Shown here: positions 6,286-42,544 of the stretch, piece by piece | Layout: every line of letters begins with the position of its first letter | How positions within the stretch are numbered: the first letter of the stretch is position 1 | NCBI GenBank assembly: GCA_029881795.1 | Contig: JAOULX010000004.1 | Location: forward strand, 1 to 64,000 | From: Gammaproteobacteria bacterium | Lineage (GTDB): Bacteria; Pseudomonadota; Gammaproteobacteria; SZUA-229 | Reading direction: 5' to 3' | Length of the DNA: 64,000 nt | Notes under the pieces: model-generated | Seen by the model: only the letters and a program-made list of their open reading frames with translations | Database searches by the model: none | What the model was told of the DNA's origin: nothing | Translations under genes and position numbers: made by a program

Positions 6286-7119
6286 TTAACCGTAGCGACC
6301 CGTAATGTAATCTTCGGTCTGTTTTTCTTTTGGGTTTGTAAACAGATTATCCGTGGCACCAAATTCAATGAGGTCGCCCATATACATAAACGCAGTATAA
6401 TCCGATACCCGCGCTGCCTGTTGCATATTATGCGTAACAATCACGATAGTGTATTCAGATTTTAATTCATAAATTAATTCTTCTATTTTTAAAGTCGAGA
6501 TCGGATCAAGCGCAGATGCGGGCTCATCCAGCAGCAAAACATCCGGTTTAATCGCAATAGCACGGGCAATAACCAGACGCTGTTGTTGTCCGCCAGACAA
6601 GCCCAACGCACTTTCATGCAGACGATCTTTTACCTCATTCCACAAGGCCGCGCCTTTTAACGACTTTTCAACGGCCTCATCGAGAATGTGCCGCTGTTTT
6701 ATGCCTTGCAGACGCAGGCCATAGGCCACGTTTTCATAAATTGATTTTGGGAACGGGTTTGGACGCTGAAACACCATACCAACACGACGGCGCAAAGCCG
6801 ACACATCAATATCAGGCTGATAGATGTTTTCACCATCAATCTGAATTTCACCTTCAATCTTTACATTATCAACCAGATCGTTCATCCGATTAAAACAGCG
6901 TAACAAGGTGGACTTACCACAACCACTGGGGCCGATAAAAGCAGTCACCCGCTTGCGTGGAATCGGCAGATTAATACCATGCAGCGCTTCTTTTTCACCG
7001 TATGATAATTTCAGGTCATTTACATTGATACAGATATCTTCATTTTCCAGTGCCATAGGCTGACCACTGGCTGAGAGAATACTTGTATCTATACCGTGTG
7101 TTAAAACTTCATTACTCAT
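6286..7119 (-). CDS. pstB: Phosphate ABC transporter ATP-binding protein PstB
   Basis: The 277-residue ATPase has Walker [10 protein letters not shown], the Q-loop region, signature LSGGQQQRL and Walker [14 protein letters not shown], then the H-loop in [14 protein letters not shown]. It hydrolyses ATP to drive phosphate import through PstC and PstA. The N-terminal extension of about 25 residues before the ABC core is common in long PstB forms. It lies 44 bp downstream of pstA and 35 bp upstream of phoU in one operon. Confidence 0.97.
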
Positions 7120-7163
7120 TCGAGTCTGCTCCGGCCTTTAATTTCATAAACACAAAATATTTA

Positions 7164-8831
7164 TCAATCAAGGGCTTTGTATTTTTCGCGTAAGCGATTA
7201 CGTAACATAATCGCACTTAAATTCAGTAAGACAATAACCAGCACTAATAAAAACGCCGTGGCATAAACCAGTGGCCGGGCGGCTTCTACATTAGGGCTTT
7301 GAAAACCGACATCATAAATATGAAAACCCAGATGCATGAATTTACGTTCCATATGTAAAAATGGGAAGTTATCATCAAGTGGCAACTCAGGCGCCAGCTT
7401 AACCACTCCGACTAGCATCAACGGTGCCACCTCACCTGCTGCGCGCGCCACCGCCAGAATAAGACCGGTCATAATAGCCGGACTAGACATCGGTAAAATC
7501 ACACGCCACAGTGTTTCGGCCTTGGTTGCACCCAATGCCAGACTGCCTTCACGCAGATTTTTTGGAATCCGCGCCAGACCTTCTTCGGTAGAAACAATAA
7601 CCACCGGCACCGTTAATAAGGCCAGCGTTAAAGCCGCCCAGACCAGCCCCGGTGTGCCGTAAGTTGGTGCAGGTAGTGCCTCTGGATAAAACAGCTGATC
7701 AATATTTCCACCAAGAAAATACACAAAGAAACCCAGACCAAACACACCATATACAATAGATGGCACACCGGCGAGATTATTAACGGCAATACGAATCAGT
7801 CGAATTAACGGCCCCTGTCTGGCATATTCTCGTAAGTAAACAGCGGCTATCACACCAAAAGGCGTGACCAGTATGGACATTAAAATCACCATCATTACGG
7901 TGCCAAAGATAGCAGGAAATACACCGCCCTCAGTATTAGCCTCACGCGGATCTTCAAAAATGAAGTTATAAAAATTCAGTGCATAATGACCCAGCTTGCT
8001 AACAACACTCATCTGATTTGGTTTGAGTATTGATACCAGCATATGCAGCGAAACAACAACCTCTTTATTATCTGCCGTAATAAACGTAGCACTGTCGCGT
8101 TTAATCTCATCACGCAGTAAATTAAGTCGCTTTATAACGATCTGGTAATCCGCTTTAAAAGCATCCTCTTTTACTGCCAGCGCTGCCAGATTTTCCGCAC
8201 TGTTTTTATTCTCAAGTTCCAGTTTGCGTTTTTTCAGACGCAGTCTTTCCAGTCCATAATTAATTGAACTGATACTGTTTTTTTCCAGTTCTTCAAGCTC
8301 AGATCGCAAACCCAGCACACGCTGAAAGCGATGATTCAGTTCATCCCAGGCCTGCTTTTCACTGGCAACAACCCTGCCCTGCTCTTTAACATCTTTCAGA
8401 TAACCGTAAAAGTTACCCCACTCCAGACGTTCAAGTTTTATCAAATGCTCGGGCTTGGCTTGTTTTGTAATATAGTGTGCATAAATCCATTGGAAATCGG
8501 CAGAAGCCTGATCACGGTTACCGCTTTTAATTAAAACTCGCTGGATAACATCAACGCCGGCAGGTGCTTTTACTGACGCAACTTCTTCAAATAATTTGGA
8601 TGAAAATTCGGCGGTTTCAATACGCTCACCAATTATAGTGCGGGGTTGCGCTTTGCTATCATGGTAATCAAGCTGATAAATATCAGAAACCCAGAAATGT
8701 CCCATGCCTTTGACCATGATCATCGCAAGAATACCGATAACCAATAGCAGGCTGATACTTACCGCACCTGCATTGAGCCAGATCCACGGACTGCCACTGC
8801 CCCACCAGTTTTTTAATTTATCTATCATCAT
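7164..8831 (-). CDS. pstA: Phosphate ABC transporter permease PstA, long form
   Basis: At 555 residues this is nearly twice the length of Escherichia coli PstA. One membrane segment (about 18-40) is followed by some 250 residues predicted to be periplasmic, including a charged coiled-coil stretch (about 175-255). Residues about 300-545 hold the binding-protein-dependent permease domain with the EAA-type loop (EGSLALGATKAETLWRVILP). Long PstA proteins are known in Vibrio and Pseudomonas relatives. It pairs with the equally extended PstC, whose gene ends 8 bp upstream. Confidence 0.94.
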   Translation of the reverse strand: MMIDKLKNWWGSGSPWIWLNAGAVSISLLLVIGILAMIMVKGMGHFWVSDIYQLDYHDSKAQPRTIIGERIETAEFSSKLFEEVASVKAPAGVDVIQRVLIKSGNRDQASADFQWIYAHYITKQAKPEHLIKLERLEWGNFYGYLKDVKEQGRVVASEKQAWDELNHRFQRVLGLRSELEELEKNSISSINYGLERLRLKKRKLELENKNSAENLAALAVKEDAFKADYQIVIKRLNLLRDEIKRDSATFITADNKEVVVSLHMLVSILKPNQMSVVSKLGHYALNFYNFIFEDPREANTEGGVFPAIFGTVMMVILMSILVTPFGVIAAVYLREYARQGPLIRLIRIAVNNLAGVPSIVYGVFGLGFFVYFLGGNIDQLFYPEALPAPTYGTPGLVWAALTLALLTVPVVIVSTEEGLARIPKNLREGSLALGATKAETLWRVILPMSSPAIMTGLILAVARAAGEVAPLMLVGVVKLAPELPLDDNFPFLHMERKFMHLGFHIYDVGFQSPNVEAARPLVYATAFLLVLVIVLLNLSAIMLRNRLREKYKALD

Positions 8832-8839
8832 AAATTTTC

Positions 8840-11062
8840 TTACAAGCTACCGTATTGTTTACGTAAACGCTGGCGCACAATTTCAGCAGCGGTGTTAAAA
8901 AAGAAAGTCACTACAAACAGCACAAACGCAGCAAGGAATAATATCCGATAATGTGAACTGTCAATTTCTGATTCTGGTAATTCAACCGCGACATTGGCCG
9001 ACAATGTACGCATACCTTCAAAGATACTGAAATCCATGACCGCTGTATTACCGGTTGCCATTAATACAATCATGGTTTCGCCTACAGCGCGTCCCAGCCC
9101 GATCATAACCGCGGAAAAAATACCCGGGCTCGCTGTCAAAATAACAACCCTTGTCAGTGTCTGCCACGGTGTTGCCCCAAGTGCCAGCGAGCCCTGTGTT
9201 AAGTATTTTGGCACACTGAAAATAGCATCTTCGGTAATAGAAAAGATAGTCGGAATGACAGCCAGTCCCATCGCGATACCGACGACCAGTGAATTTCTCT
9301 GATCGTAGCCAATACCGAACTCATGCTCCATCCAGACCCGCAAACTGCCATCAAAAAACCAGCTTTCGATGACAGGGCCGCTGGCAATAGAAAACCAGAC
9401 CAGTAAAGCTATCACCGGCATTAATACCGCAGCCTGCCAGCCATCGGGTATCAGGTAATGAATTTTTTTCGGCAGTTTATGCCAGAGCACAGAAAAAGCC
9501 AAAATACCCGGTGGCAAGATTAACAGGATTGAAATAATGCCGGTGAGATTATCCTCTATCACGGGAGCCAGCCACAAGCCGGCAAGAAAACCAAGAATAA
9601 CCGTGGGCAGTGCTTCCATAATTTCAATACCGGGTTTAACCCAGCTGCGCATGCCCGGCGACATAAAATAAGCGGTGTATATTGCACCCATAATCGCCAG
9701 CGGCGTAGCAAACAGCATGGCATAAAATGCTGCTTTTAACGTACCAAATGCCAGTGGAACCAGACTAAACTTCGGCTCAAAATCGTTATCCGCAGAAGAC
9801 GACTGCCAAATATAATCTGCTTTATCATAGCCTTCGTAAGTCACTTCACTCCAGAGTGCAGACCATGATAATTCTGGATGTTCATTATGAATATAAGTGA
9901 CAACAATTTGATGATCTGCATCTTCATGCAATAACAGATTGGCACGGGTTGAAAGCGCAAAATGCTTAACCGGAAGATCCGACAAATGCTGTTTTGCCAG
10001 CAAATTATCGGCGGTGGTATGATAAATCAGCAAACTGCCTTTTTCATCCAGTGCCAGTACGCCTTTACGACGATGTTCAGACTGAATATGCAGCAACTTA
10101 TTGTCATTCTTAAAACCACGCACCCGCACCAGCGCATAGTTATTTGATTTATCTCGCTGTAATGTCCACTGACTAAACCCGCCCTTTTCATCGGCAGCTA
10201 AAATCGATAAGCCGCCCAGTAACATTTTTAATGCAGAAAGTTTTTCCTTGGGCGGTAAAATTTTAGTCTGACTTACCAGCGTCACATCTTCCAGCTCAGA
10301 AATATCAAAGACACTGACCTCGCCCTGCTCATTGGAAAGATAGAGCCATAAGGCCTGCGCATCAAGCAGCATATAATCAGTCTGATGCGGCTCTTCGACA
10401 ACCACTTCTGCGACGGCTTCTGAAAAGCTATCATCGTCTTCGATTTCATAACGATACAGTCTGACTTCACCGTCTGCCATCAGCAGACTTAGCGTCAGTT
10501 GATCTTCTTCGCGTGTCGTGATGACTTGTTTAAAATCATCTTTAAAATCTATAAACGAATCTTCAAACGGGTATTCGATATCCGGTGTCAAGACACGTTT
10601 ATCATTGTTGAAGCTGACTTTATAAGTAAGACGGATAAAGAACAGTTTGCTGTTATCCAGTTCCAACGCCAGCATACTTTCATTCAGTCCAACAACTTTT
10701 GCACCGGTCACCACGGCATCGTCCGGTAACTCAAGCGTCATCACATCGGAGACATCACCGCTTTGTAGTTCAAAAAAGACGGCTTTTCCCTGATCGGTTA
10801 AGCGCAACCCCTGCTCACCACTTTCTTCCGGCAACAATAAAACGGTATTACCCGATTCTGCTGATGGCAGCGAATAATGTTCTTTGGTCTGTATATCGAC
10901 CGAGCTGAACATGGGTAGCACTACCCATAACAGATAAAAGAAAATAAGCACGATAGCCAAAATAACACTGAGACCACCCAGACCTACGCCATAACGGGTG
11001 ATGTTATCGATGAGCAATCGCCTTTGCTGGCGCCAGGCGCTGGATTTCTGAAGTGTAGTCAT
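8840..11062 (-). CDS. pstC: Phosphate ABC transporter permease PstC, long form
   Basis: The 740-residue protein starts with one membrane segment (about 29-50), followed by about 370 residues of predicted periplasmic beta-rich sequence that looks propeller-like. The PstC permease domain occupies about 425-735 and includes the EAA loop (TQGSLALGATPWQTLTRVVI). Usual PstC proteins have about 320 residues, and the extension is typical of a gammaproteobacterial long form. The function of the insert is not known; it may contact PstS or sense the periplasm. A separate Pho box lies upstream at 11086-11103. Confidence 0.94.
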   Translation of the reverse strand: MTTLQKSSAWRQQRRLLIDNITRYGVGLGGLSVILAIVLIFFYLLWVVLPMFSSVDIQTKEHYSLPSAESGNTVLLLPEESGEQGLRLTDQGKAVFFELQSGDVSDVMTLELPDDAVVTGAKVVGLNESMLALELDNSKLFFIRLTYKVSFNNDKRVLTPDIEYPFEDSFIDFKDDFKQVITTREEDQLTLSLLMADGEVRLYRYEIEDDDSFSEAVAEVVVEEPHQTDYMLLDAQALWLYLSNEQGEVSVFDISELEDVTLVSQTKILPPKEKLSALKMLLGGLSILAADEKGGFSQWTLQRDKSNNYALVRVRGFKNDNKLLHIQSEHRRKGVLALDEKGSLLIYHTTADNLLAKQHLSDLPVKHFALSTRANLLLHEDADHQIVVTYIHNEHPELSWSALWSEVTYEGYDKADYIWQSSSADNDFEPKFSLVPLAFGTLKAAFYAMLFATPLAIMGAIYTAYFMSPGMRSWVKPGIEIMEALPTVILGFLAGLWLAPVIEDNLTGIISILLILPPGILAFSVLWHKLPKKIHYLIPDGWQAAVLMPVIALLVWFSIASGPVIESWFFDGSLRVWMEHEFGIGYDQRNSLVVGIAMGLAVIPTIFSITEDAIFSVPKYLTQGSLALGATPWQTLTRVVILTASPGIFSAVMIGLGRAVGETMIVLMATGNTAVMDFSIFEGMRTLSANVAVELPESEIDSSHYRILFLAAFVLFVVTFFFNTAAEIVRQRLRKQYGSL

Positions 11063-34511: not shown

Positions 34512-34937
34512 TTACTCGGCTGCAGCAGCTTTATCATCCGCTGCTTCATCAAGATCATCGTCATCATCCTGTTCTTCATCATCTACAGGTGCTGCGCGCT
34601 CAGTTTTCTTCTCTTCGTCTTTCTCTTTCATCAATAATGATGCTTCAGTAATCGCTTCTTTGCGTTTGATAATTAAATTACGCAATACAGCATCATTGAA
34701 TTTGAAAGCCGACTCAAGCTCAGACAGAGCTTCGCCATTGCACTCTACATTCATTAAAATATAATGTGCTTTGTGGATTTTGTTGATGGGATACGCTAAC
34801 TGGCGACGACCCCAGTCTTCTAGACGATGGATATTTCCACCAAAAGACTCGATCATGCTGCGATAACGATCGATCATAGCGTTAACTTGATCGCTTTGGT
34901 CTGGATGAACCAGAAATACTACTTCATAATGACGCAT
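34512..34937 (-). CDS. rpsF: 30S ribosomal protein S6
   Basis: The 141-residue protein begins [18 protein letters not shown] and shows the S6 fold through residue about 95. The C-terminal tail is long and very acidic ([16 protein letters not shown]), longer than in many relatives; in E. coli the S6 tail is extended by RimK with glutamates. It is the first gene of the block, and its leader can hide the ribosome site (34945-34998). Confidence 0.96.
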
Positions 34938-35168: not shown

Positions 35169-36920
35169 ATGACGCAAACAACTATTAATCTCATTATTTT
35201 TAAAATCGGCCCGGTACCCTGCTGCGTCGATTCTAACTCTGTCCAGGTGGTAATCGAACCACCGGACCATATCACAGCGATACCCGGCAGTAATGCACTG
35301 CGCCCTGGTTTATTCAGCCATATGAAAAAAACAGTGGCTGTTTATGATGTTCGTTCAAAATTCAGCTTATCGACCGGACAACGCGGTAAGATTCTGATTG
35401 CCAATATGCATCAACAACAATTTGGCTTCTGGGTCGACAACATCCAGGAAATTATTTCTTCCGATAAGGCTCGCTGGCAAGCACTGCCGGCAGAATGTCC
35501 AAAAGATATTTTTGACGGCATCCTGCTTTATAAAGAGCAACTAATCCTCAAAACCGACTTTGACAAACTGGCGCATGCCAACGTCAGCACGCAGACGCAA
35601 TTATTTATCAAACAATTCATAGCACCTGAACCTGAGCAGAATTCTGCCACTGAGATCGATTCTAATACCATCCCCACCAACAAAAAGACAGCAACATTGG
35701 GCAGCCAGCACGAACAAATCGCTCAAACGACAAGCCATACCTCAGACAAATCACCGCAAGCTGTTAGACCTCAATCTGTTGTGGCACCTAACCATCAGCA
35801 TACTGCTGTAGGCACTGCAGTCACTCCGCATGCGGATAAAAAACCTGCACCAACACCTGCAACCACACCTTCATTTACAGCCAGCGCTGCTAGCACCAGC
35901 ACCAGCACCAGCACCAGCACCAGCACCAGCACTAGCACTAGCACTAGCACTAGCACTAGCACTAGCAGGGCTGAGTCAGTTATAAAACCTGCTTCAGCAG
36001 CGGAAAGTCACAGCCCGGCTCAAACAATTACTCAGCCGCGCACAGCAACAAACACGGCGGCAAAGAAAAATATCACCCCAACCACGGCCGTCAATCCAGC
36101 AGCTCATTTATACTCAAATACAAGTGACATAAAAACCAGTATCAAGCCAGACCCGTTACAGAAACCAGCCACTGCAAAAACAGTTCCAGCTGAATCCGTG
36201 ACCGGCGCAGAAAAATCAGAACATACAGTCCGCCAGGCGAAACAAGCTTCCAATAAATTTTACGCCAGCATGTTTCTTTTAGCCGTAATAACTGCAGCTA
36301 TTACCGTGCCATTTATTGATTTCAAAAAATCCAGCTCTGGTTCTCAACCGTCACCAGTGGCACCGAGCAGACCATCGCAACTAGCACTCGATATAGTAAA
36401 TAATGAATCAGATTTAAATGATCACGTTACACCTGATAGTGTCGATAACACAGCAACTATGACACTAACAACAGAAACACCACCTGAACCAAAACAAAGT
36501 GCCAGCGATACACAAGAGATAGTATTTACTGATTCAGGCCTTCAAATCAGCAAACAAAAAGATACAATCGTTATCACTTTAGACGACAGCGAAGCTCGAC
36601 TTAACTCAGTCAGCACAAACACAAAACCCAATGCACTCACCCCCCAAGCGCTAAGCACAGCCAAAAATCCTGATAGCAACAATAAAACACAACACGCAGC
36701 CAGTAAAAACAGAATTTCAAATAACAAAACTTCCGCAACAAAACCTGAAAAAATTACTCATGTGGTCGTTAAAGGTGACACGCTATGGCATATAGCAAAG
36801 CGATATATACATGACCCGTTCAAATATAAACAAATCGCAAAGCTCAGCAGAATAAAAAACCCTGACCTTATTTACCCGGGCAATCGCATTATCATCATCA
36901 TTCACAAAAACAACAAATAA
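35169..36920 (+). CDS. CheW-like domain / transmembrane / LysM fusion protein
   Basis: The 583-residue protein has an N-terminal CheW-like domain (about 5-140: NLIIFKIG, VAVYDVRSKF, GFWVDNIQEII, LILKTDFDKL). A 220-residue Ser/Thr/Pro/Ala-rich linker follows, with a pure Ser-Thr repeat at residues 242-265. One membrane helix comes next (about 367-385, FYASMFLLAVITAAITVPF), then a second low-complexity region, and a C-terminal LysM domain (about 532-580, VVVKGDTLWHIAKRY and NPDLIYPGNRIII). Topology inferred: CheW inside, LysM in the periplasm on peptidoglycan. No kinase or receptor gene of a chemosensory array is adjacent. The architecture is not one I recognise; the function is unknown. Confidence 0.85.
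   Translation: MTQTTINLIIFKIGPVPCCVDSNSVQVVIEPPDHITAIPGSNALRPGLFSHMKKTVAVYDVRSKFSLSTGQRGKILIANMHQQQFGFWVDNIQEIISSDKARWQALPAECPKDIFDGILLYKEQLILKTDFDKLAHANVSTQTQLFIKQFIAPEPEQNSATEIDSNTIPTNKKTATLGSQHEQIAQTTSHTSDKSPQAVRPQSVVAPNHQHTAVGTAVTPHADKKPAPTPATTPSFTASAASTSTSTSTSTSTSTSTSTSTSTSTSRAESVIKPASAAESHSPAQTITQPRTATNTAAKKNITPTTAVNPAAHLYSNTSDIKTSIKPDPLQKPATAKTVPAESVTGAEKSEHTVRQAKQASNKFYASMFLLAVITAAITVPFIDFKKSSSGSQPSPVAPSRPSQLALDIVNNESDLNDHVTPDSVDNTATMTLTTETPPEPKQSASDTQEIVFTDSGLQISKQKDTIVITLDDSEARLNSVSTNTKPNALTPQALSTAKNPDSNNKTQHAASKNRISNNKTSATKPEKITHVVVKGDTLWHIAKRYIHDPFKYKQIAKLSRIKNPDLIYPGNRIIIIIHKNNK
35892..35963 (+). repeat. Hexanucleotide repeat, six AGCACC then six AGCACT
   Basis: Twelve in-frame 6-bp units encode (Ser-Thr)12 in the linker of the CheW-LysM protein. 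The first six are AGCACC and the last six AGCACT. Gain or loss of units keeps the frame, so it would change linker length only. Confidence 0.95.
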
Positions 36921-37053: not shown

Positions 37054-38601
37054 TCAGAGTTGCTTCATAACAAGCAGGGTTAGGTCATCAAAGATTTTTT
37101 GCTTGCCAATATGCTGTTTGACATCTTTGATAATCAGATCTTTAATGTCTTCCGGGAGCTTAAGGTAATTAGCCTGCAGTATTTTACACAATCGCTCTGT
37201 TCCATATAATTCATGTGCTGTATTTGCAGCCTCGGTGATACCATCCGTATACAAAGCAACCAGATCACCCTGATACAGTGATATTTTTTTACTATGGAAA
37301 AAATCATTGGCATCACTGACAAGACCAATTGGAAAACCCAGTTCATCAGTATCAATTTCTTCAACTTCACCGTTATTTCTTATAATGATCACAGATTCAT
37401 GCTGACCTGCCAGAGTCATTTCAGCAGACGGCCTGTCCGCTGCGGCGGCGGACAAACCAAAATTTTTATAATCAAGCAGCATCAGGGTCAGATTCTTTTC
37501 AGAATTCATTCTGTCTACATTGTTGTAAATCGTTATATTGGCAACTTTCAGCATTTCGATCAGATCATAACTCGATGCGCTTAGCTGAGACCGGATGATA
37601 CTTTGAATCATCAACATTACCATACCGCTTTCCAGGCCATGCCCAGTGACGTCACCAATACCAACTAACGCACCACTATCATGTTTAAGCACCTCATAAT
37701 AATCACCGCCTATTTCATCGGCAGGCTGCATAAAAGCAGCGATTTCAAGCCCGTCAATAGTGGAAATTTCTTGCTGAGTTGGCAGAATAACTTTCTGTAG
37801 CTGCCTACTGACGTCAAGCTCCGCTCCCATCCGCATATTTTCTTCACGCGTATGAAAAAGTTCTTTAGTACGTTTTTCTACCCGTTGCTCAAGCGTTTGA
37901 TTTACTTCTTCAAGCTGCTGCATAAGAACAGTTAATTTAATACCCTGGTTTCTTATCTGACGAATCACAAAATATACAATCATCAGGCTGAATGCCAGAC
38001 CAAATAAACCCAGCACCACCATCTGACTTCTTGTCTCTTCATAGGAAGTTCGCGCATCCAGCAATTCATGCCGTGATAGTTTAGACTGCATTTTACGCAA
38101 TTTATTTAATCGCTCGAGCACGCCGGCATTAACTTCTCTGGCTTTACTGATGAGTTCAATCTGATTATTACCTGTCTCATCGATCGCATTTTCGACAATC
38201 TGAGCAAGCAGAAGCTGCGCCTGTTTGAGTATTTTCCTCTGATCAACAAGTTCATCGATCTGTGTTTTAGTCAGATCCAGTGACATTAGTTTTTCACGGG
38301 CGTTGATGAAATCCGTTGCTTTTTTAGAAAGCCCCATATTCATTTCATCAATTTCAAAGGCATCTTCAGAATTGAGGATGTCGTAAACAATTAACATGCG
38401 ATCCCTTATAGAATCACTGAGCTCTGTCATACTTTCGGATTTTGCATTGCTTTGATTAACCAGATAATCCAGTTTTTTATAATTTTCCTCCTGATTATTA
38501 AGCACTACCTTGACCGCAACACCAAGTATCGAAAAGGTTAGTACAAATCCGACGATCACCAATGTGATTTGTCGACCAACTATATGATCCTTTTTATTCA
38601 A
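37054..38601 (-). CDS. Membrane sensor PP2C/SpoIIE-type serine phosphatase
   Basis: The 515-residue protein has a membrane helix (about 10-33), a helical periplasmic domain (about 35-190, like a four-helix receptor domain), a second membrane helix (about 193-213) and a coiled coil (about 225-270). The SpoIIE-type PP2C domain (about 285-515) has metal-binding motifs DEIGGDYYEV, GIGDVTGHGLESG and LYTDGITEA. It probably removes phosphate from the STAS protein encoded 5 bp upstream, restoring partner switching in answer to an outside signal. It resembles SiaA/RsbU-like phosphatases. Confidence 0.88.
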   Translation of the reverse strand: MNKKDHIVGRQITLVIVGFVLTFSILGVAVKVVLNNQEENYKKLDYLVNQSNAKSESMTELSDSIRDRMLIVYDILNSEDAFEIDEMNMGLSKKATDFINAREKLMSLDLTKTQIDELVDQRKILKQAQLLLAQIVENAIDETGNNQIELISKAREVNAGVLERLNKLRKMQSKLSRHELLDARTSYEETRSQMVVLGLFGLAFSLMIVYFVIRQIRNQGIKLTVLMQQLEEVNQTLEQRVEKRTKELFHTREENMRMGAELDVSRQLQKVILPTQQEISTIDGLEIAAFMQPADEIGGDYYEVLKHDSGALVGIGDVTGHGLESGMVMLMIQSIIRSQLSASSYDLIEMLKVANITIYNNVDRMNSEKNLTLMLLDYKNFGLSAAAADRPSAEMTLAGQHESVIIIRNNGEVEEIDTDELGFPIGLVSDANDFFHSKKISLYQGDLVALYTDGITEAANTAHELYGTERLCKILQANYLKLPEDIKDLIIKDVKQHIGKQKIFDDLTLLVMKQL

Positions 38602-38606
38602 TTTTT

Positions 38607-38954
38607 TTATTCCAGAATCAATTCCATTGCAGGCATTAGTCTTTTTAAATTATTCAGTGATTTTGTCTGCCAAGGAACACTCTGCGAACCGACAACAACC
38701 AGTTTAAACTCGGCTTTGTTACGTGCATTGATAACAAACTTAGAAAACATGGCAATACCTGAACTGTTTAAAAACTCCAGTTCTTTAAGCGACAGTGTCA
38801 ACGCATCTGACTCAGTGACAGCTTGCGTAAGGCAATCGGCAATAGGCGCATACTCAGACAAACCACCTAGTCGCAAAGTACCTGTAAATCTAACTACGCT
38901 ATCAGCTGGTTGATATTCTACCTGGTAATTATCATCTTCAATTTTAATCATCAT
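38607..38954 (-). CDS. STAS-domain anti-sigma-factor-antagonist-like protein
   Basis: The 115-residue protein carries a STAS fold with the motif LEFLNSSGIAMFSKFV, where a Ser of NSSG corresponds to the phosphorylated Ser of SpoIIAA/RsbV (usually DSSG). It is likely the switching partner of the HATPase encoded 10 bp upstream and of the PP2C phosphatase encoded next. It resembles cyanobacterial slr1659-type regulators. Confidence 0.82.
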   Translation of the reverse strand: MMIKIEDDNYQVEYQPADSVVRFTGTLRLGGLSEYAPIADCLTQAVTESDALTLSLKELEFLNSSGIAMFSKFVINARNKAEFKLVVVGSQSVPWQTKSLNNLKRLMPAMELILE

Positions 38955-38964
38955 ATCTCTCGTA

Positions 38965-39534
38965 TTAGATCTTTATCACGACTTGAGTGGTCACTTTACA
39001 GGCATCATTAATATCATCGAACTGCCAGCCCAATTCTGCCTGATAATCATTAATCATTGTTAAATACCCCAGACCCGACGCCGAGTCAGACTCCGCACTG
39101 GCTTCGAGCCGTTTCATAAACAATTCATCTGGGTCACTGCTTTCAAGCTCCTTAATAAAGGCCTTAAACTCAGTTTTTTGGCCTGCACTGATGCCATTAA
39201 TTTCAGTAAAAATTAACTGGTCAGGTAATAAGGTTAGATCAATGCTATTGGGTATATTGCCGTTTTCATCACAATATTTCATTGCATTTTCTAGTAACTC
39301 ATTGGCTATATAGGTTGCCGCATCACGAACTATCGCTTGTTTTTTAGCCGAATCAGGCTGCTCATTATCTTTTGGAAAAAAGGTGGTCAGATAGTCTCCC
39401 AAAAAATCTGCCGAGAGACCATTGTTTCTCCATCTCTGTTTAATAGGTACTGAACTTGGCTTAAAGCTAAGACACATATGTTCACAATAGTTATTTGGAT
39501 CAATTTCATTAAAACAACCGTATCGCTCACTCAT
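38965..39534 (-). CDS. HATPase-like switch kinase (slr1658/SiaB-like)
   Basis: The 189-residue protein has a GHKL ATPase N-box ANELLENAMKYCDENG (about 92-107) and a glycine motif SASGLGYLTMINDY near 155. No phospho-acceptor domain or receiver is present. It is likely a serine kinase/anti-sigma-like regulator acting on the STAS protein. The start overlaps the GGDEF stop (ATGA, 39531-39534), so the two are translated together. Assignment to the SiaB-like group is inferred from fold and context. Confidence 0.7.
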   Translation of the reverse strand: MSERYGCFNEIDPNNYCEHMCLSFKPSSVPIKQRWRNNGLSADFLGDYLTTFFPKDNEQPDSAKKQAIVRDAATYIANELLENAMKYCDENGNIPNSIDLTLLPDQLIFTEINGISAGQKTEFKAFIKELESSDPDELFMKRLEASAESDSASGLGYLTMINDYQAELGWQFDDINDACKVTTQVVIKI

Positions 39535-40406
39535 TCAGCAGGCCCTCTGCAATTACTTTTATTTTCGGTTTCATTATTAAATCCGACAACTTGATTTCTG
39601 CCTTTTTCTTTGGCTTTATAAAGCATATTATCTGCCTGTTGTAAAAGACAGGATTCTTCTGCACCAGTAATAACGGTGCAGCTGGCAACGCCGATACTGA
39701 CACTGACAGTGTCACTGATTTTTGATTTATTATGCGGAATATCGAGCTGCTTAACAGCCAGACGCAAGTCTGATGCAATTTTCATTGCCCCATCGTAATC
39801 GGTATCAGGCAGAACAATTGCAAACTCTTCACCACCATAACGGGCAAATAAATCGGTACTTCTTACCGATATTTTTTTCCCCTGCTCAGCAATACGTTTA
39901 ATACAGTCGTCACCTATCTGGTGGCCGTATTCATCATTAAAGAGTTTGAAATAATCGATATCTATCATGATAATTGAGAATTTCGAATGGTGTCGTAAAG
40001 CCCGGCTCCATTCACTGGCAAGGTAATGATCAAAATGCCGCCTGTTTGATACTTGGGTTAAGCCATCCGTTAAGGCTTCTTCTTCTGCTACCCCCAAACG
40101 TTCGAGCCATTCATATTGCAAATCATCACCATGAGAAGTAATGGTTTCGACCAGCACCTCAAGATCATCTTTTTGCTGGGTTAATGCAGAGATTAGATTT
40201 TGAAGGCGGTTTTCAGCTTTCCTGCGCTCGTTGGCTTCACGCTCCAGCGAATCGTTAACCAACAATAGCTGCTCCTCTATTGAGTCGCCATGCTCGATCG
40301 CTGTCATCAACGCAATCTCAAGATCTGAAGCATCCTGACTCAGGCGTTTGATTGCTTTTGCCTGATCTTCAATAATTTGCAGTAAATCAGATTTTTCTTT
40401 TATCAT
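39531..40406 (-). CDS. Diguanylate cyclase (GGDEF), coiled-coil N-terminus
   Basis: The 291-residue protein has an N-terminal coiled coil (about 1-95) and a GGDEF domain (about 115-280). The active site is RYGGEEF and the inhibitory site RSTD lies five residues before it, so it should make c-di-GMP with product feedback. There is no sensory or receiver domain, which suggests control by protein contact, most likely with the STAS or HATPase partner. It is the first gene of the four-gene operon. Confidence 0.92.
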   Translation of the reverse strand: MIKEKSDLLQIIEDQAKAIKRLSQDASDLEIALMTAIEHGDSIEEQLLLVNDSLEREANERRKAENRLQNLISALTQQKDDLEVLVETITSHGDDLQYEWLERLGVAEEEALTDGLTQVSNRRHFDHYLASEWSRALRHHSKFSIIMIDIDYFKLFNDEYGHQIGDDCIKRIAEQGKKISVRSTDLFARYGGEEFAIVLPDTDYDGAMKIASDLRLAVKQLDIPHNKSKISDTVSVSIGVASCTVITGAEESCLLQQADNMLYKAKEKGRNQVVGFNNETENKSNCRGPAE

Positions 40407-40681: not shown

Positions 40682-41227
40682 TCAGTGTTTTACAGGTTTC
40701 TTCTGAAGTTTTCTTTGCAATGTGCGCCGGTGCATATTCATCGCTCTTGCAGCGGCAGAAATATTACCGTCATGCTCGTGCAATACTTTTTGCAGGTGTT
40801 CCCATTCAAGACGTTTTATTGACATCGGGTTAGCTGCGGCTTCGACATTAACATCGCCTGGTATTTTATCAAAGGCATCGATAATATCTTCTACCTCAGC
40901 CGGCTTTGTTAGGTACTGACTCGCACCCAGCTTTATCGCCTCAACAGCAGTTGCAATACTCGCATAACCGGTTAAAACAACAATGCTGATATCAGGCTGT
41001 AAAGTAACCAGTATTTCTACCATACTCAACCCCGAATCCTGACCAATACGGAGATCAACCACGGCACAGCCAAAAGCCTGTTGTTCGGCTACCTTTCGAC
41101 CCTCAGCTACTGACTGCACTGCACACACATTATAGCCATGTCTTTGTAATGCCCTGGATAGAACCTCACAAAATGCCAGATCATCATCAACTAATAATAA
41201 TTCTTTATTAACGACGCCAGTATTCAT
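40682..41227 (-). CDS. regA: RegA/PrrA/ActR-type redox response regulator
   Basis: The 181-residue protein has a receiver domain (LLVDDDLAF, phospho-acceptor Asp in AVVDLRIG, VLTGYAS, Lys in YLTKPAE) and a C-terminal Fis-type helix-turn-helix (NISAAARAMNMHRRTLQRKLQKK). This is the length and order of RegA/PrrA, which controls respiration, carbon and nitrogen genes in response to redox state. It lies 3 bp after regB. Confidence 0.92.
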   Translation of the reverse strand: MNTGVVNKELLLVDDDLAFCEVLSRALQRHGYNVCAVQSVAEGRKVAEQQAFGCAVVDLRIGQDSGLSMVEILVTLQPDISIVVLTGYASIATAVEAIKLGASQYLTKPAEVEDIIDAFDKIPGDVNVEAAANPMSIKRLEWEHLQKVLHEHDGNISAAARAMNMHRRTLQRKLQKKPVKH

Positions 41228-41230
41228 AGA

Positions 41231-42544
41231 CTAAATTACTTGCTCTAACGGTATACTAATCAAGGTTCGGCTGCCTTTAGTTTGCCGGTTACTTTGCGTG
41301 ATTTGCCCTCCCTGCCTTCTTATTGCAGCATAAGCTAAATATAAACCTAATCCCAGACCCAGCTCTTTTTCACTGTAAGGTTGCTTGCCAATCGTCTGCA
41401 ACGCTTTCTCAGACAAGCCAGGGCCATGATCCAGTATTTCAACTGAAAGACTGTACTGATCAGAACTCAGTATCCATTTTACAAAATCAGGGGAAACATC
41501 GATCGCATTTTCAATGATGTTAATCAGTGCAAGACTCATCGTCCGGCTCGTAACAATCCTGCTAAGCGGATCGACAGCATCCCATGCGTAAAGCACATTT
41601 GCTTCCGGTCTGATCAAAGCAATTTCATCTTTCAAACGCGCAAAATAATCCACCGCGTTTTCAATATTGCTGCCATACAAATCAGAAGACATACCAACAG
41701 ATGCCGACAAATCTGACAATGATGTCTTGCACCGACCAATCTGTGATTTTAAATTTTCAAGATCCTTATGCACCTGCCGGTTTTCATCATCGATTTCTGC
41801 CTCAAGCTCACTCACTAGTAAGGACATTGTCCCCAATGGAGTACCCAGTTCATGCGCTGTGCTCGCAGCCAGTGTTCCTAATATTACCAGCTGCTCATCT
41901 CTTATAGACTGTTCGCGGGCATGTGCCAGCTGCTTGTTTTGTAAACGCAGTGTATTGCTCATACCATAAACATAATAAGTAATCAGACCTGCATTCAGAA
42001 TAAAGGCCAGCCACATCCCCATTAAGTGCAGATCATATTCAGAGCTCAGTAACTGACCATGCATACCAGGATTCACTGCCTGCGCTGCAGCATGATTCAT
42101 TTCATGCCCCATATTGTGCATCATCGGTAAGGCCTGATAATTAAACATCAGCAAGCTATAACAGATCACTGCCAGCACAGCCAACCACCACGCATAACGA
42201 ACCGGTAATATTGTTACCGTTATGGTTAAAGGAAACAGAAACAACATCACAAACGGGTTTGTTGCTCCGCCGGTAAAATACAACAACAAAGCAAGAGCCA
42301 GCAGGTCAAAAGCCAGATGAATGAATATTTCATTTTCAGTCACACGCTTAGGCTGCCGAAGGCGCATCCAGACAAAGGCATTAAACAAAATAATCTGAAA
42401 AATTATAAGACTGATCGGCAACACAGGAAGGTCAATTTTTAGCCACAACAAAACGACCAGAAGCGCACTAAACTGCCCAGCAATAGCGAGATTTCTCAAT
42501 ACAAACAAACGTTTTAAATGGAAATAGTTAGCTGTTTCTTTCAT
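41231..42544 (-). CDS. regB: RegB/PrrB-type redox sensor histidine kinase
   Basis: The 437-residue protein has six membrane segments in residues about 15-195. The second extracytoplasmic turn carries GGATNPF, the quinone-binding heptapeptide of RegB. The H-box is ASTAHELGTPLGT, and QIGRCKTSL holds the redox-active Cys typical of RegB. The HATPase has NIIENAIDVSP and ELGLGLGLYLAYAAI. A Met/His-rich stretch (MMHNMGHEMNH) lies before the last membrane helix. It should sense ubiquinone redox state and phosphorylate RegA. Confidence 0.93.
   Translation of the reverse strand: MKETANYFHLKRLFVLRNLAIAGQFSALLVVLLWLKIDLPVLPISLIIFQIILFNAFVWMRLRQPKRVTENEIFIHLAFDLLALALLLYFTGGATNPFVMLFLFPLTITVTILPVRYAWWLAVLAVICYSLLMFNYQALPMMHNMGHEMNHAAAQAVNPGMHGQLLSSEYDLHLMGMWLAFILNAGLITYYVYGMSNTLRLQNKQLAHAREQSIRDEQLVILGTLAASTAHELGTPLGTMSLLVSELEAEIDDENRQVHKDLENLKSQIGRCKTSLSDLSASVGMSSDLYGSNIENAVDYFARLKDEIALIRPEANVLYAWDAVDPLSRIVTSRTMSLALINIIENAIDVSPDFVKWILSSDQYSLSVEILDHGPGLSEKALQTIGKQPYSEKELGLGLGLYLAYAAIRRQGGQITQSNRQTKGSRTLISIPLEQVI

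Follow-up and report, generated by a model that had tools for sequence, protein, structure and literature searches.

A gammaproteobacterial protein joining a divergent CheW domain through a membrane helix to a LysM domain, and its possible role in holding chemosensory arrays

Results

Domain layout and flanking genes

A 64,000-nucleotide stretch of gammaproteobacterial DNA (hereafter the window) carries, at positions 35169..36920 of the plus strand, a gene whose open reading frame and translation give, from an ATG start, a protein of 583 aa. Pfam recognises in it only two domains, CheW (41.2 bits, E 1.6e-10; cut-off 23.5) and LysM (42.2 bits, E 7.5e-11; cut-off 20.9). The CheW domain (aa 8-136; 35190..35576, +), which is predicted to be cytoplasmic, was recovered by Pfam, by an own-genome search, by AF2 and fold matches, and in residue tables and a tree. 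It is followed by a disordered linker, also predicted to be cytoplasmic (aa 151-360; 35619..36248, +), whose translation contains an (ST)n run and whose pLDDT lies below 50 across most of aa 154-359, and then by a single transmembrane helix (aa 362-385; 36252..36323, +), seen by AF2 and by hydropathy, where the one hydrophobic segment (aa 365-383) falls between CheW and LysM. The LysM domain, predicted to be periplasmic, occupies aa 531-576 (36759..36896, +) according to Pfam and to an own-genome LysM search, and aa 527-579 in the full-length AF2 model, a run on 15 sequences whose mean pLDDT of 57 includes a large share of disorder. The first-pass annotation had already described CheW, LysM and one membrane helix in a single protein; Pfam, hydropathy and AF2 upheld this description and found its coordinates correct to within a few residues.

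We infer that the N-terminus is cytoplasmic and the C-terminus periplasmic; the charges flanking the helix do not decide the topology. The linker between the CheW domain and the helix measures about 210 aa in the window protein and from ~130 to more than 600 aa across its relatives. Between the helix and LysM, a short beta-branched/aliphatic run follows a loose five-residue pattern in 19 of 25 sequences. The same predicted periplasmic part contains, in the AF2 model, a short beta-hairpin (aa 453-472; 36525..36584, +).

The gene is divergent from rpsF (34512-34937, minus strand) and convergent with a SpoIIE-type phosphatase gene (37054-38601, minus strand; SpoIIE domain by Pfam), whose presence beside it had been noted earlier. 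The phosphatase gene belongs to a four-gene GGDEF/slr1658/slr1659/SpoIIE operon (37054-40406, minus strand), two members of which match the slr1658 family (E 5.3e-69) and the slr1659 superfamily (E 3.4e-42), while the phosphatase itself has a weak similarity to SiaA (E 1.1e-16, below the cut-off). From its sequence, the operon looks like a SiaABCD-type partner switch made of slr1658/slr1659 parts. At 40682-42544 (minus strand), a response regulator with a Fis-type HTH stands beside a histidine kinase with a PilS-like transmembrane domain, a pair that we take to be reminiscent of RegA/RegB. No che gene adjoins the CheW-TM-LysM gene, which therefore does not have the setting of a stand-alone CheW in a che operon; consistent with the initial observation that neither cheA nor a receptor gene is adjacent, the nearest other CheW-domain gene lies ~97 kb away on the same contig.

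Distribution among Gammaproteobacteria

Within its own GTDB family, the protein was found in 17 of 54 genomes: 13 encode both domains in a single frame, and in the other four (G005, G012, G017 and G024) a contig end cuts the gene; one carrier, G001, has two copies. In a sample of the class, 16 of 369 gammaproteobacterial genomes were carriers, under 10 family labels and with three from the protein's own family. Twelve of these have both domains in one frame (G105 with two copies), two in overlapping frames (G230 and G178), and two are cut by contig ends (G154 and G243); as this search accepted matches up to E 1e-15 and scored no more than 10 candidates per genome, weaker or divergent carriers may be missed. 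Pfam identified both domains in all 15 members of an alignment picked for full-length proteins (the window protein and 14 relatives), as well as in 8/8 further CheW-LysM open reading frames (L173 from the protein's own GTDB family and seven from other families). A scan of named genomes with one peptide pattern, for which absence elsewhere is weak evidence, returned 27 loci, 19 of them CheW-TM-LysM, labelled Gammaproteobacteria, Pseudomonadota, Chromatiales or Ectothiorhodospiraceae; 16 have both domains in one open reading frame and three (L063, L064 and L071) end at the sequence end. At the other 8 loci (Nitrospirae, Nitrospiraceae, Thermodesulfovibrio), no CheW-LysM open reading frame was found. 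A one-off fusion or an assembly chimera is ruled out, as the domain order is repeated in many separate genomes.

Among the other long CheW open reading frames of the class list, seven were without LysM: five encode three-CheW proteins (G169, G284, G109, G245 and G251) and two, those of G342 and G310, gave no LysM match. G199 had no match among its retained open reading frames. Proteins with three tandem CheW domains, about 480-540 aa long, are encoded at L170, L172, L211, L212 and L213. The two cases of CheW and LysM in overlapping reading frames, at L163 (G178; 8032-9466) and L157 (G230; 6886-8948), could reflect sequencing error, decay or frameshifting alike.

Gene neighbourhoods of the relatives

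The neighbours of the CheW-TM-LysM gene differ by lineage. The rpsF side is common to three loci of the genus (the window, L039 and L042), and seven other genomes of the family (L045-L051) share the same two upstream genes, an acyltransferase gene and a divergent mlaA, these names resting on Pfam for L047 and on sequence for the rest. The neighbourhoods in G012 and G065 differ from those of L045-L051. At L072-L076, L157 and L159, the upstream gene is presumably ksgA-like, in L072 with four genes in between. A ComFB gene (PF10719; E 4.9e-20 to 2.2e-22) adjoins the CheW-LysM gene or lies one gene downstream of it at L072 (12187-12495), L073 (12683-12979), L076 (2796-3119) and L159 (6686-6982), and its product is a possible functional partner. 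The second copy of a congener (L040; G001:C140, 319-9511) stands one gene after chpA-chpC; no CheW-LysM copy was found at the chpC locus of the window genome (L055).

The conserved synteny with the GGDEF-HATPase-STAS-PP2C operon that the first-pass annotation had envisaged did not hold, since the operon adjoins the gene only in the window and in the congener locus L039. It is not beside the gene in L042 or in L040, it is not on the visible side of L041, where the contig ends about 400 bases past the gene, and it was not seen at the loci of other lineages that we examined. That the CheW-TM-LysM protein works with this operon is thus scarcely credible, being suggested by the two cases of adjacency and contradicted by the remaining loci and by the convergent orientation, and this link was dropped.

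Fold, phylogeny and diagnostic residues of the CheW domain

The isolated CheW domain was modelled by AF2 from 20 sequences with a pLDDT of 91.1 and a pTM of 0.84. The best PDB matches of this model are CheW chains (9a72_B, 6s1k_C, 2ch4_Y, 2qdl_B and 8c5v_E; Z 16-17 over 133-135 residues, rmsd 2.2-2.5), including the CheW of the E. coli core unit (6s1k_C), followed by CheA P5 (4 entries, Z 14-15). The prediction bears out the original reading of the N-terminus as a CheW fold and, together with the profile score above the cut-off, places the domain in PF01584. In a maximum-likelihood tree of 69 CheW-like domains, 20 CheW-TM-LysM domains form one group (support 100/99), separate from CheW, ParP and CheA P5, on a long stem of 3.25 changes per column; long branches meet elsewhere in this tree, which leaves the sister group uncertain. 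In an alignment with CheW, the family profile spans 139 columns and keeps the b4-b5 region. We rejected a relationship to ParP, because hhalign places the profile closer to CheW (E 1.8e-17, 139 columns) than to ParP (E 1.4e-8, 96 columns), a comparison biased toward CheW in that the CheW set consists of the best matches to the family profile, and because the tree also splits CheW-TM-LysM, CheW and ParP into separate groups. Identity with CheV was likewise discarded, as Pfam gave no Response_reg match in CheW-TM-LysM proteins.

The 20 domains were compared residue by residue with 21 ParP domains and with 22 CheWs, the latter being the best hits to the family profile outside the family, at least 12 of them within about 1 kb of a ParP match. 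The equivalent of E38 is E in 0/20 CheW-TM-LysM domains versus 22/22 CheWs, and that of R62 is R in 3/20 versus 22/22; the window protein has V and M, respectively. An E occurs one place earlier (position 26) in 13 of the 20, so that E38 counts as lost only if the alignment is left ungapped at that point. Among 18 further domains, two of which are repeats of the 20, E was found in 1 and R in 2. The two CheW-LysM paralogues of G105 (L160 and L161) have very different CheW domains, and the second copy, L161, keeps both equivalents. The NLRG motif of signal-coupling CheW is mostly lost. Three of the four receptor-groove positions, as given in PMC5706961, remain hydrophobic, and the fourth (V27; ParP L209) is T/S/A in 18/20. 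The ParP W305 column, assigned from the wording of that paper and the alignment, falls at position 114; it holds W in 21/21 ParP domains and V/I/L/M/S in the 20 CheW-TM-LysM domains, and the alignment excludes F115 as the W305 equivalent. The lack of W at this column, together with T/S/A in the groove, means that the individual residues support neither the ParP nor the CheW mode of array entry. The CheW-TM-LysM domains have instead a signature of their own (GPVxCC, PP, PGxF, GFWVD, W103, F115): G14, W103, F115, L119 and F131 occur in 20/20, and W103 and F115 each in 14/18 of the further domains. As far as sequence can tell, these family-specific residues point to a conserved surface or core absent from CheW.

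In PMC3828127, E. coli CheW R62A is described as having about normal affinity for both partners with impaired chemotaxis, and changes of Glu38 as reducing receptor binding. In the light of these mutants, the loss of E38 and R62 suggests that the CheW-TM-LysM domain is probably unable to perform normal receptor-kinase coupling; it may still bind array parts. The same loss bears on an explanation in which the protein senses the state of the wall, LysM occupancy or linker tension altering the hold of the CheW domain on CheA and so tuning kinase output. The union of a wall-binding domain with a kinase-scaffold fold is in keeping with such a sensor, for which the predicted periplasmic hairpin could be an extra input; however, linkers of ~130 to more than 600 aa, disordered in the window protein, would be poor conductors of a conformational signal and the E38/R62 coupling pair is mostly gone, which leaves this explanation decidedly unlikely. 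The loss of the coupling residues favours the fixing of position over the reporting of wall state.

Co-occurrence with chemosensory, flagellar and polar markers

CheA (PF02895) was present in every carrier, both in the class sample (16/16 versus 220/353 of the others, p 6.5e-4) and in the protein's own family (17/17 versus 28/37, p 0.023). FliG was found in 13/16 carriers versus 181/353 others in the class sample (p 0.016) and in 13/17 versus 14/37 in the family (p 0.009). With the AIF domain of the window genome's own parP as query and matches to E 1e-8, ParP showed a stronger association in the class sample (15/16 carriers versus 92/353, p 5e-8), which held within FliG-positive genomes (12/13 versus 88/181, p 0.0018) and by family label (10/10 versus 48/172, p 6e-6; 182 labels counted by hand, 58 with ParP), this last count being the only one of the co-occurrence tests to handle kinship. 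The association was weaker when restricted to strong ParP matches, with 11/16 versus 77/353 from 80 bits upward (p 1.3e-4) and 10/16 versus 65/353 from 100 bits upward (p 2e-4). Of the five weak matches in carriers, four (G347, G154, G369 and G352) lie less than 1 kb from a CheW match on the same contig; the window genome's parP likewise stands beside cheW in the flagellar che cluster, where its other neighbour is the gene of a ParA-type, ParC-like ATPase (L056). One carrier, G243, gave no ParP match, and 92 of the 107 genomes with a ParP match have no CheW-TM-LysM protein. The 98%-complete genomes G012 and G065, which carry a divergent CheW-LysM version, have no FliG, and no ParP was found in the six che regions fetched from them; Pil-Chp and other CheA clusters are present in both. 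The FimV core scored above the cut-off in 49 of the 54 family genomes, that of the window included (53/54 at E 0.001), so the CheW-TM-LysM protein does not replace FimV.

These counts bear on two further explanations. In the first, which we regard as unlikely although it deserves attention, the CheW domain has been co-opted by a partner that is not part of the arrays, for example an envelope-biogenesis or division protein, with LysM anchoring the complex, and the co-occurrence with CheA and ParP is no more than a by-product of CheW domains originating and being retained in motile lineages. A separate tree group on a long stem, the family-specific CC, PP, W103 and F115, the loss of most receptor-contact residues, neighbours of housekeeping or envelope type (rpsF; acyltransferase and mlaA; ksgA) and retention of the gene in G012 and G065 without FliG would all agree with it. 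Yet not one carrier among the 16 of the class or the 17 of the family is without CheA, and the link to ParP exceeds that to FliG and persists within FliG-positive genomes, which a general motility effect does not explain. In the second, the arrays served would be those of type IV pili (Pil-Chp) rather than flagellar ones. Here the second copy near chpA-chpC in L040, the presence of Pil-Chp in the FliG-lacking G012 and G065, and a dprA-linked protein of the same genome, whose LysM is similar to that of the CheW-TM-LysM protein and, we assume, resembles TsaP, have to be set against the finding that at least 15 of the 37 non-carrier genomes of the protein's own family have a CheA open reading frame of ChpA size (1865 aa or more), and that ParP, a flagellar-cluster marker here (L056), is the best correlate tested. 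We consider a dedicated Pil-Chp role improbable.

Discussion

Based on these observations, we propose, with a probability of roughly 0.5, that the CheW-TM-LysM protein is a peptidoglycan-anchored, transenvelope tether that holds chemosensory arrays in place, its putative binding partners being those suggested by its domains. LysM would grip peptidoglycan, a role also assumed for the LysM of HubP, and the CheW domain would bind the CheA/CheW baseplate, or the rim of it, in a geometry other than the canonical one that couples receptor to kinase, making a mechanical link only, through which no signal would pass. On either side of the membrane, the disordered linkers would serve as ropes, and the arrays, of ParP type in most carriers, would be held, clustered or positioned relative to the cell wall. 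In effect, this would resemble the tying of arrays to ParC by ParP, here achieved by a single molecule.

This tether is supported by the CheW fold, the LysM domain, the conserved domain order, the presence of CheA in every carrier and the co-occurrence with ParP. The first-pass annotation had suggested a tie between a signalling array and the wall, and that much gained from the conserved architecture and from a presence that tracks CheA and, more strongly, ParP, whereas the operon placed beside it there did not. Several points speak against the tether. In the window and at most of the loci seen, the gene has no array gene beside it; the ParP association weakens when only strong matches are counted; G012 and G065 are without FliG, and without ParP in the regions fetched, and G243 is without a ParP match; L161 keeps both E and R, the loss of E38 hinges on the alignment, and the charges leave the topology unsettled. 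In addition, with FimV in 49/54 family genomes a wall-anchored polar hub is not lacking, and 92/107 ParP-positive genomes do without the CheW-TM-LysM protein.

Two positioning systems may be regarded as the nearest working analogues, ParP and HubP, and by the tests made, which read sequence, the protein belongs to neither. In PMC5706961, ParP, whose AIF domain serves polar array positioning in Vibrio, has a CheW/P5-like domain divergent from CheW that forms its own clade among SH3-like domains, and, beyond a long linker, a second part with which it recognises a localisation cue; by inserting its CheW-like domain into arrays, ParP connects them to ParC. There, the CheW-like domain is C-terminal and follows an N-terminal part that binds ParC, unlike the N-terminal CheW domain described here; moreover, W305 is not conserved in the CheW-TM-LysM family and the ParP of the window genome has no LysM. 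HubP/FimV, as presented in PMC8789113 and PMC12918733, likewise has a single membrane helix, a periplasmic LysM and a long cytoplasmic part and acts on array positioning, and the first of these papers reports LysM to be necessary and sufficient for the polar targeting of HubP. The CheW-TM-LysM protein shares with it LysM and one membrane helix, the membrane side of its LysM being predicted, and differs in that HubP/FimV is acidic in its cytoplasmic part, carries a TPR domain at its C-terminus and has no CheW fold, whereas the C-terminus here is LysM; the window genome also has a separate FimV. In HubP/FimV, LysM lies, in sequence order, on the opposite side of the helix from that in the CheW-TM-LysM protein.

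Other CheW-related proteins offer more partial likenesses. The CheW coupling protein shares the whole predicted fold (Z 16-17), but in the CheW-TM-LysM family E38, R62 and NLRG are mostly lost, and the protein is membrane-anchored and falls outside the CheW group of the tree. FrzB of Myxococcus (PMC6952110) is a CheW-like protein whose part in forming and distributing arrays is altered; it is without b4-b5, a region whose length the CheW-TM-LysM protein keeps, and is described without mention of LysM. In CheWS of Treponema, a CheW-CheR-like fusion (PMC10653840), a CheW domain that gives entry to arrays is likewise linked to a further domain, there a methyltransferase-like one rather than TM-LysM. 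In the open-access literature, we found no account of CheW and LysM in one protein among the matches listed. A 2023 survey (PMC10653840) puts the number of CheW architectures in Pfam v35 that had not been described at 30 (its figure S10), and the CheW-LysM order may be catalogued among them.

The holding of arrays at fixed places of the envelope is understood in few bacteria, where it works through cytoplasmic adaptors and landmark proteins. A protein that ties the array scaffold to the wall, if this proves true, would make a mechanical link between arrays and peptidoglycan directly testable, and the CheW-TM-LysM protein would serve as a marker for a gammaproteobacterial branch of CheW domains that has apparently gone unstudied.
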